Source of the DNA: a virus
Strand: one strand, 5' to 3'
Length of the DNA: 30,792 nt
Virus record (IMG/VR): IMGVR_UViG_3300028557_000137
Coordinates: 1 to 30,792 of that record
The notes beneath the pieces were generated by a model. That model was not told the DNA's origin. It ran no database searches and worked only from the letters and a program-made list of their open reading frames with translations. The translations under genes and the position numbers were made by a program. Every line of letters starts with the position of its first letter. The first letter of the stretch is position 1. Positions 7,416-10,222 of the stretch are shown here, piece by piece.

Positions 7416-7711
7416 GCGGCGTTCAGGCGTGCGGCCCCGAAAACGGCCCATTTGACGCGAACGACTCAAAGCACAGACTGTATTCGGCAGCCCAAGTCGC
7501 TGCGCTGGTCGAGCAGGCCCGGCGCGAGGGCGCGGAGGCTGAGCGCGAGGCGTGTGCTGCGGATTGCGACTGCGGATGCGCGGCGCGACCTGATGTTCTG
7601 CCGCGGTTCGCAACAGATGGGCACAAGCGCGCGTCCTATCTCTGCCCGCACGGCGATTCTTGCCACGCCCTGCAAGCCGCCGCCATCCGCGCGCGAGGAG
7701 ACGCGCCATGA
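7412..7711 (+). CDS. Cysteine-rich hypothetical protein (99 aa)
   Basis: Starts at ATG 7412, overlapping the previous stop. Residues 20-50 form an acidic/basic helix (YSAAQVAALVEQARREGAEA). Next is a dense cysteine cluster CAADCDCGC and, later, CPHGDSCHAL near the C-terminus. The seven Cys and nearby His residues suggest a metal site, probably zinc, although the spacing does not match a family I know. Proteins with the motif YSxxQVxALV-x-x-A-R-R-E are frequent in phage early operons without known function. The stop overlaps the exonuclease start. Confidence 0.6.
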   Translation: MSGVQACGPENGPFDANDSKHRLYSAAQVAALVEQARREGAEAEREACAADCDCGCAARPDVLPRFATDGHKRASYLCPHGDSCHALQAAAIRARGDAP

Positions 7712-8589
7712 CCGCCGAGGCCGAGCGCCTGCGGATGCCGGGCATCTACACGATGCCCGCAGCAACCTACCACGCCGACCCGTGCGAGGTGCCGAGCCTG
7801 TCCAGCGGCATCGCGCGCCTGCTGATCCGCCGCAGCCCGATGCACGCGCACCATGCGCACGCGCGCTTCGGCGGGAACTCTCGCGACCCGTCCGCGACGA
7901 TGGATGCCGGCTCGATCCTGCATAAGCTCATGCTTGGCGAGGGTGACGACTACGAGGCGGTGCAGGCCGAGAACTGGACCACCAAGGCTGCCAAGGAGGC
8001 GCGGGAGGCCATTCGCGAAGCTGGCCGCATCCCTGTCCTCGCGCACCAGCTAGAGGCGCTACAGGCCGGTGCAGAGGCCGCACTGGCGCAGATGCGCGAG
8101 CATCCGGACTGCGGCGCGTTCTTCGACGCAGGCCAGTCTGAGGCCGTGCTGGTGGCCGAAGATCGCGGCGCTTGGCTGCGGTGCATGGTGGACCGCCTGC
8201 CGACCGGCGAGCGCATGCCGTGGTTCGATATCAAGACGACCAAGGCCAGCGCGGCGCCGGTTGATTTTCAGCGCGCCATGATACGCGACCATGCGTTTCA
8301 GGAGGCGTTCTATCGGCGGATCGGGCGCCTGCTCAACCGCAAGCCGCGCGCGTTTTTCTTCGTGGTGGTGGAGCAAGACGCGCCGCACGCCATCGCCGTG
8401 ATGGCTGCCGCGCCGTCGCTGGTCGAGATCGCGGACCTTGAGGTTGAGCGTGCCGTGTCGGTGTGGCGGCGCTGCATGGAGGCGCAGCGGTGGCCCGGCT
8501 ATCCGGCGCGGACTGCCTATGTCGAAGCGCCCGCATGGGCAACGCAGGCCGAGGAAGCCGCGAACATGGATGAGGAAGTCGAAGCATGA
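7708..8589 (+). CDS. PD-(D/E)XK exonuclease (DUF3799/RecE-like)
   Basis: This 293-residue protein (ATG 7708, overlapping the gene before) matches phage exonucleases of the RecE/DUF3799 group, which degrade one strand of double-stranded DNA to give 3' single-stranded ends for annealing. Visible core residues: H72 in SILHKLML, E145 in QSEAVL, D162 in MVDRLP, and D174-x-K176 in WFDIKTT, followed by the helix around FQEAFYRRIGRLL. This is the order of a PD-(D/E)XK site (E, D, DxK). The N-terminus (GIYTMPAATYHAD and LSSGIARLLI) is also typical. It overlaps the ATPase gene by 4 bp and forms a recombination set with it and the SSB-like protein. Active-site residues appear intact. Confidence 0.88.
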   Translation: MTAEAERLRMPGIYTMPAATYHADPCEVPSLSSGIARLLIRRSPMHAHHAHARFGGNSRDPSATMDAGSILHKLMLGEGDDYEAVQAENWTTKAAKEAREAIREAGRIPVLAHQLEALQAGAEAALAQMREHPDCGAFFDAGQSEAVLVAEDRGAWLRCMVDRLPTGERMPWFDIKTTKASAAPVDFQRAMIRDHAFQEAFYRRIGRLLNRKPRAFFFVVVEQDAPHAIAVMAAAPSLVEIADLEVERAVSVWRRCMEAQRWPGYPARTAYVEAPAWATQAEEAANMDEEVEA

Positions 8590-9959
8590 CGTTCACCCTG
8601 CGCCCGGCCGTGCGCGAAAAAATCGGCTTGCTCTTTGCGGTGGCCGGCGCGAGCGGTTCGGGCAAGACTTTCTCGGCGTTGGTGCTGGCGCGCGGCATCG
8701 CCAATGGCACCGGCAAGATTGCCGTGATCGATACCGAGGCCGGGCGCGCGCTGCACTACGCGCCGAAGCCCGGCGCGAAAGCCGATGGCGTGCGGACGTT
8801 CGATTTTCTGCACCTGGACTTTCAGCCGCCGTTCACGCCCGAACGGTATATTGAGGCGATCCAGGCATGTGAGGCGGCGGGCGCGACGGTGATCGTCATC
8901 GACAGCGCCTCGCACGAATGGTCCGGCGAGGGCGGGTGCTCGGATATCCAGATGGCCGAGGCCGAGCGCATGGCCGCGAAGGACGGCAAGAGCGTTGACA
9001 GCATGACGGCGCCGGCCTGGAAGCGCCCGAAGCTCCGTCATCAGCGGATGATGGCGCGGCTGATCCAGTGCCGCACGCATCTGATTTTCTGCCTCCGCGC
9101 GCAGGAGAAGGTGAAGATCGTCGGCGGCAAGGTGACGCCGGTTGGCTTCATGCCGATCTGCGAAAAATCTTTCATGTTCGAAATGTCGGGCAGCGTCACC
9201 TTGCACCCCGAGACGCCGGGCCGGCCGCGCTACGACCTCCCGCACAAGCTCAACGACGAACTGCGGGAAATCTTTGATGAGCAGCACCGCATCGACGCGG
9301 TGGCCGGCAAGCGGCTGCGCGCATGGGCAGAGACTGGCGAGGACCGCCCGGCGCTGGACAAGGCCGCCGTGGGCACGCGCGACCTGGTGGAGCGCATCCA
9401 GGACGCGGCCAGCCTGCCGGCGCTGAAGCTCATCACTGGCGAGGACGCCGTTGTGAAGCAGCGCGCATGGCTGGCGAAGAACCGGCCGGAATTGGCCGAG
9501 CAGGTTGACGACGCAGTGGCCGCTGCGCTGGCGGTGTATGCGCCGGATGACGACGCCGCGCGCGTCTGGGCTCGCCGCTACGCCCCGGAGGTCATGCTCG
9601 GCGTCTACGCGCCTGAGGAATTTGACGAGCCCCCGGCGCAGCCCCGCGAGGTCCAGATCGTGGTGGTGGACGAGCCCAAGGTGAGCCGCCCCGTCGTGCA
9701 GACCGACGCCCTGCTGCCCATCATCTCGCCCATAGACGGCGCGGTGAACCAGGTGCCTGGCCCTAAGTGGCTGGGCGCGGTCCAGCGCGCGTTGGTGCTG
9801 CTGGACGACGCCGAGAAGGTCCGCACCTGGCGCCAGGACATGGGGCCGCACCTCGCCGCCATTGCCGAGCGTGACGACAGCAAGGCCACCGAGGCCGACC
9901 GCATGATTGCCGACCGCCTGGCTGATCTGGGCGAGCGTGAGCCCGGCGAGGAGGGCTGA
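8586..9959 (+). CDS. RecA/AAA-type ATPase, Sak4-like recombination partner
   Basis: The 457-residue protein has Walker A GASGSGKT (21-28), a Walker B-like VIVID (102-106) followed by SASHEWSGEGG, and further conserved elements such as LRAQEKVKIV. Up to about residue 230 it looks like the phage RecA-like ATPase domain (AAA_24/Sak4 kind), which promotes single-strand annealing or strand exchange. The remaining half is helical and acidic, with a Pro-rich hinge near 345-385; it is longer than compact Sak4 proteins (about 250 aa) and may carry an extra interaction module. The exonuclease gene overlaps it upstream, and the SSB-like gene follows after 2 bp. The recombinase role is inferred from family and context. 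Confidence 0.8.
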   Translation: MTFTLRPAVREKIGLLFAVAGASGSGKTFSALVLARGIANGTGKIAVIDTEAGRALHYAPKPGAKADGVRTFDFLHLDFQPPFTPERYIEAIQACEAAGATVIVIDSASHEWSGEGGCSDIQMAEAERMAAKDGKSVDSMTAPAWKRPKLRHQRMMARLIQCRTHLIFCLRAQEKVKIVGGKVTPVGFMPICEKSFMFEMSGSVTLHPETPGRPRYDLPHKLNDELREIFDEQHRIDAVAGKRLRAWAETGEDRPALDKAAVGTRDLVERIQDAASLPALKLITGEDAVVKQRAWLAKNRPELAEQVDDAVAAALAVYAPDDDAARVWARRYAPEVMLGVYAPEEFDEPPAQPREVQIVVVDEPKVSRPVVQTDALLPIISPIDGAVNQVPGPKWLGAVQRALVLLDDAEKVRTWRQDMGPHLAAIAERDDSKATEADRMIADRLADLGEREPGEEG

Positions 9960-9961
9960 CC

Positions 9962-10222
9962 ATGAGCGGCACGCGCGACAACAGCGGCAACATCAGCCGC
10001 AACGAGAAGAAGACCGAGGACCGCCACCCTGACATCAAGGGGAAGGCGACCATCGACGGCGTTGACTACTGGGTTAGCGGTTGGCTGAAAGAGAACGACC
10101 GCGGCAAGTGGTATTCGCTCTCCTTCCAGCCAAAGGACGCGCCGGTAGAGCAGCGCCAGCAGCCGCAGCGGCAGCCGGCGCAGCGTCCCGCCGCCGACCT
10201 CAACGACGACATCCCGTTCTAG
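9962..10222 (+). CDS. SSB-like protein with DDIPF acidic tail (86 aa)
   Basis: The N-terminus is polar and Asn/Lys-rich; residues 23-60 form a compact beta-rich unit (DIKGKATIDGVDYWVSGWLK, then GKWYSLSFQPKD). After a Gln/Pro/Arg linker the protein ends exactly in DLNDDIPF. The same ending (DDIPF) is the docking tip of bacterial SSB proteins, which recruits replication and repair partners. The body is much shorter than a normal OB fold (about 110 aa), so it may be a reduced single-strand binder or an SSB mimic. Directly downstream of the exonuclease and ATPase, it probably completes the recombination set. No OB fold can be proven from the sequence alone. Confidence 0.65.
   Translation: MSGTRDNSGNISRNEKKTEDRHPDIKGKATIDGVDYWVSGWLKENDRGKWYSLSFQPKDAPVEQRQQPQRQPAQRPAADLNDDIPF

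Follow-up and report, generated by a model that had tools for sequence, protein, structure and literature searches.

The analyzed stretch of DNA, hereafter the window, is a virus record of 30,792 bases with a G+C content of 69%, in which a PHROG search detected portal, terminase and capsid genes. It carries a recombination module on the (+) strand, whose first gene encodes an exonuclease VIII (RecE-type PD-(D/E)XK nuclease; 7660..8589; phrog_412, E 1.7e-55; Pfam DUF3799 PDDEXK-like, E 2.9e-17). The stop of the nuclease gene is overlapped by the start of the gene for a RecA-like ATPase of the AAA_24 type (8586..9959, (+)), which was recognized by PF13479 (E 7.9e-10) and phrog_1366 (E 2.1e-70; PHROG label: unknown function) and further by the UvsX-like phrog_97 (E 2.4e-4). 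Judged by its sequence, the ATPase is a probable recombinase or annealase. Residues 324-421 (window 9555-9848) match the C-terminal part of the RecT-like phrog_561 (E 1.7e-7), a similarity that suggests fusion of the ATPase to an SSAP-associated domain.

The third gene (9962..10222, (+)) starts with an ATG two bases past the stop of the ATPase gene, and its Shine-Dalgarno sequence GAGGAGG (9948..9954, (+)) lies inside the end of the latter. It encodes a small putative phage SSB of 86 aa ending with ...ADLNDDIPF, which confirms the reading frame and the DDIPF tip noticed in the sequence-only reading. The product comprises a predicted four-stranded β-body (residues 8-57; 9983..10132), a disordered Q/P/R-rich linker (residues 61-80; 10142..10201; pLDDT <50 at residues 64-81) and the SSB-type C-terminal tip NDDIPF (residues 81-86; 10202..10219), all on the (+) strand. 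From exonuclease VIII via the AAA_24 RecA-like ATPase to the small SSB, the genes overlap or nearly touch each other; the SSB gene closes this tight operon.

The protein belongs to a widespread phage family

Searching the window protein by hmmscan retrieved phrog_7364 (E 1.9e-13) and phrog_18154 (E 3.9e-12), each carrying the label single strand DNA binding protein; the match to phrog_18154 spans profile positions 5-105 of 105, i.e. body and tail. No Pfam family matched at E up to 1, nor did any NCBIfam family, and the plasmids collection contained no match. By tblastn, 102 phage records were found to contain relatives, none of which reaches 60% identity and many of which are annotated as ssDNA-binding protein, while a profile scan of viral contigs yielded at least 599 candidate stretches, of which at least 586 encode a relative. 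The family is widespread in phages, and PHROGs as well as many GenBank records already name it SSB; the PHROG label is, however, annotation only, which we counted against the SSB reading. No structure or assay of a family member was found in the open-licence literature and any such work appears to be unreported; the available excerpts of PMC8515928 and PMC8775771 do not mention the window protein.

For comparison, 75 distinct proteins were aligned, which derive from 80 kept of the at least 586 relatives plus seven loci found separately; start codons were assigned by rule to the nearest ATG within 36 bases upstream. Both PHROG families match all 75 members. The window protein stands for its identical copy L001, also designated L180 (15,367 bases), whose DNA stretch does not match the window exactly. 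The relative L002 aligns over the full length with 67% identity, and among 84 codons compared with the window 42 are identical, 16 differ synonymously and 26 non-synonymously. Kinship with DUF736 (PF05284) was also considered, as a motif resemblance is visible, but hhalign returned a probability of 0.8% (E 0.066); PF05284 matches 2/75 members weakly (best E 0.037) and one DUF736-named BFVD model appeared at E 0.047. Hence, this kinship is not claimed.

The gene resides among recombination and replication genes

ORFs located upstream of the family gene were inspected at 71 loci (the window ATPase and 70 others) and encode a YqaJ nuclease in 30 and ERF in 17 cases. At odds with this picture, phrog_19855, labelled virion structural protein, also matches 25/71 of these ORFs; perhaps this label sits on a YqaJ relative. 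In some relatives, the family gene follows Erf. Among 78 Erf loci, 63 carry the small SSB family, a figure partly reflecting common descent because the loci were seeded from an Erf gene adjoining a family member, and an SSB-tailed small protein is present in 9 of the other 15. In several loci (L313:4286-4576, L312:2454-2783, L291, L318, L320-L323, L329) a SpoVG-like protein of 96-109 aa with an acidic ...PF tail is encoded directly after Erf, where relatives possess the small SSB. PHROGs do not name it SSB, and the resemblance to SpoVG, seen in two types examined among the SSB-tailed proteins of Erf loci, is weak.

In phages SH-Ab 15497, Bm1, BUCT555, VP5, PSA28 and PMBT28, helicase and PolI genes are found near the family gene. 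Four of these six additionally carry an adenylosuccinate synthetase gene, which in our reading is of the PurZ kind, i.e. the 2-aminoadenine type.

To assess what occupies the position downstream of the ATPase, 80 ATPase-related loci were fetched, of which 64 were non-redundant, and 2.5 kb downstream were scanned. An SSB or SSB-tailed gene was present in 31/64 loci, encoding a canonical OB-fold SSB (10 loci), a DUF3127-type (11), L208-type (7) or L226-type protein (2; phrog_743, SSB) or the small SSB (1); the DUF3127, L208 and L226 types were first chosen by their tails, so that the canonical count alone is backed by an independent profile. No SSB-type gene was found in 23 loci and 10 were too short to judge. 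Canonical SSBs in this slot include those of L338, which ends with E-D-L-P-F and follows the ATPase directly, L191 and L234. As the slot is filled by different SSB bodies, position rather than body sequence marks the SSB role. Pairing of the small SSB with the AAA_24 ATPase is rare (1/64 loci), which counts against the SSB reading, and the nearest ATPase relatives L181-L186 lack a small SSB downstream, arguing against a specific partnership. Proteins of the L208 type (L208:4839-5213, L215:5026-5403, L193, L204, L205, L209, L211, L218) have 88-125 aa, carry a D-L-P-F tail and are encoded downstream of an AAA_24 ATPase; PHROGs assign them to phrog_18029 of unknown function, and we regard them as candidate SSBs.

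A canonical SSB (PF00436) was detected in 0/42 tested records carrying the small SSB family, comprising the window, 31 hand-picked longer viral contigs and 10 phage genomes. PF00436 scored above the cut-off in 14/46 records that carry an ATPase relative and lack the small SSB family; these represent 46 of the 80 ATPase loci, after removal of the carrier L180, of short contigs and of near-duplicates. Fisher's test ignoring kinship gives p 4.6e-5, a value that is indicative only because many records are fragmentary and interrelated.

One could imagine that the protein is a recombination mediator or loader similar to UvsY or RecO, whose body contacts the recombinase while its tail competes with host SSB and displaces it from ssDNA without coating by the protein itself. 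Such a role would agree with neighbouring SSAP, nuclease and RecA-like ATPase genes. However, family genes also adjoin PolI and helicase genes where the inspected stretch has no annotated recombinase, and true OB-fold SSBs take the slot in ATPase relatives; we therefore consider a mediator improbable.

The body is conserved at least as well as the tail

Residues G9, G27, G33, W37 and W41 are invariant in all 75 members, while N14, P23, S39 (71/75), K43 (70/75), G48 and L53 as well as K58 just past the body (70/75) are near-invariant. At the tip, P85 is kept in 73/75 and F86 in 72/75 aligned members. An exact P-F end is present in 61/75 proteins and 67/75 contain at least three acidic residues among the last ten, indicating that the tail does not occur by chance. 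The linker varies in length across the family. Three observations were counted against the SSB reading: 12/75 members lack the terminal F, 10/75 have residues past P-F, and the mean net charge of the body is only ~+1.8. Pockets that bind the SSB tip in the host would not favour tails lacking the terminal F or continuing after P-F. In L101 (5001-5516), a phiVC8-like two-domain SSB, the frame extends 14 residues beyond D-D-D-I-P-F.

Members of the Vibrio VP5/phiVC8 type (L016/L100/L101) share the HMM family, body and tail of the window protein and of other phrog_7364/phrog_18154 proteins, but contain two bodies with a single tail (domain E-values 1.6e-14 and 6.7e-14), whereas the shorter window protein has one body. 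Conversely, L040:4003-4197 encodes a member of 64 aa without tail, with helicase, PolI and PurZ relatives close downstream. Two bodies with one tail and a tail-less member indicate that the body is a functional unit. This bears on the mimicry proposed in the sequence-only reading, according to which a body without DNA binding would present D-D-I-P-F to sequester host SSB-interacting proteins, e.g. RecO, PriA or exonuclease I. The small body, the tail near the bacterial consensus and the failure to find a Pfam DNA-binding domain in the window protein would suit a mimic, but the invariant W37, W41, G27 and G33, the tandem bodies sharing one tail, the tail-less member encoded shortly upstream of replication genes and the residues beyond P-F speak against it, rendering mimicry unlikely.

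Structure prediction yields four strands without a recognizable OB fold

AlphaFold2, supplied with the 75-row alignment, predicted strands at residues 8-13, 25-31, 34-45 and 48-57 followed by the disordered linker, with block-mean pLDDT values of 87-95 over residues 11-60 and no helix. The body is thus somewhat larger (~50 residues) than the ~40 residues estimated previously, but as anticipated it stays below normal SSB size, i.e. below the 104-position canonical SSB model. The predicted fold is not recognizable as an OB fold, which is a five-stranded barrel. Judging from residue spacing rather than coordinates, W37, S39, W41 and K43 occupy every second position of one long predicted strand, so that their side chains would point in one direction, as would suit a surface that binds nucleic acids.

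Among solved structures, a sequence search returned only efflux-pump matches (E 0.7), and in the profile search the SSBs 7f2n (E 0.031) and 1eqq (E 0.095) aligned at the tail only, the other chains being unrelated. Foldseek found no PDB match for the monomer model at E up to 0.001; the Enc34 phage SSB was listed with just 22 aligned columns (E 2.4). Ten viral models in BFVD matched with E no higher than 0.001, followed at 3.9e-3 by a protein of Vibrio phage JSF9 that bears the name single stranded DNA-binding protein. In the L100 model the four strands are repeated twice at lower confidence (mean pLDDT 67.6); it likewise had no PDB match by Foldseek at E up to 0.001, so that no dimer geometry could be read from it.

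Weak structural matches to ssDNA binders were obtained with Borrelia Pur-alpha (Z 4.2), the T5 PC4 homologue (Z 3.7), human PURA (Z 3.6) and MoSub1 (Z 2.9). The strands in ssDNA-binding sheets of the PC4/PUR-alpha type are antiparallel. Like the window model, the sheets of the PC4 and PUR-alpha proteins have four strands, but the alignment is weak (Z 2.6-4.2), within the range of common arrangements, and PC4/PUR/Whirly-like folds combine a curved sheet with a dimerizing helix that the model lacks. As unrelated proteins reach the same scores, the likeness is only a hint.

Discussion

Taken together, we consider it likely that the product of 9962-10222 is a very small phage SSB, which would coat ssDNA and recruit partners via its tail. 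It is probably an SSB of a structurally uncharacterized type, with putative DNA binding. The reading builds on the gene, its family, the conservation, the operon, slot replacement and the predicted strands, and from these we infer ssDNA binding, oligomerization and a partner of the tail. Of the two functions envisaged in the sequence-only reading, the reduced single-strand binder thereby gains support from family label, neighbourhood, slot replacement, four-stranded body and lack of canonical SSB in the same records, binding itself staying putative; the mimic hijacking host SSB partners is disfavoured.

According to this model, the ~50-residue body, probably assembled into dimers or larger oligomers, would coat ssDNA arising from the exonuclease and from replication. 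The flexible linker and the acidic D-D-I-P-F tip would attract the phage recombinase from the preceding gene or stimulate its activity, with the AAA_24 ATPase as presumed partner, and the tip may possibly also recruit host SSB partners. There is precedent in phage HK620, where, according to the available part of PMC5928155, the SSB from the adjacent gene stimulates the RecA-like annealase Sak4 and needs its own last six residues to do so. In HK620 as in the window, the gene of a RecA-like recombinase precedes one for a phage SSB whose acidic tip ends with ...PF, but the HK620 SSB (DUF669, N4 SSB-related) has a monomer mass of 21.3 kDa according to the same paper, in contrast to the 86 residues of the window protein, for which Pfam returned no DUF669 match. 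The canonical SSB of bacteria (PF00436, E. coli type) shares the D-D-I-P-F tip and the disordered linker with the window protein, but features an OB fold described by a 104-position profile in place of the ~50-residue four-stranded body, for which PF00436 gave no match.

Phage SSBs with bodies unlike bacterial SSB can complement an E. coli ssb mutant, as stated in the available part of PMC3208561, and another phage SSB carries a DUF3127 domain (excerpt of PMC8004638). None of the four SSB groups of dsDNA phages summarized in the accessible text of PMC5686142 is an obvious match for the predicted four-stranded body. With somewhat more doubt than confidence, we propose that the family is a further class of dsDNA-phage SSB, in which the standard SSB tip is joined to a minimal four-stranded non-OB (PC4/PUR-like) body that may be the smallest known SSB module, and that phages appear to swap unrelated bodies (canonical OB, DUF3127, SpoVG-like, small SSB) while keeping tip and slot.

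If the protein is a true SSB, few SSB modules would be as small as its ~50-residue body, which would add a type beyond the four groups in the part of PMC5686142 referred to above. It would also provide a compact partner for recombineering enzymes, for which Sak4-SSB is the precedent. Since the family is present in phages with a PurZ-kind gene, the small SSB may coat modified ssDNA. Finally, the pattern of body swapping offers a direct experimental way to ask what the SSB tip does in phage recombination.
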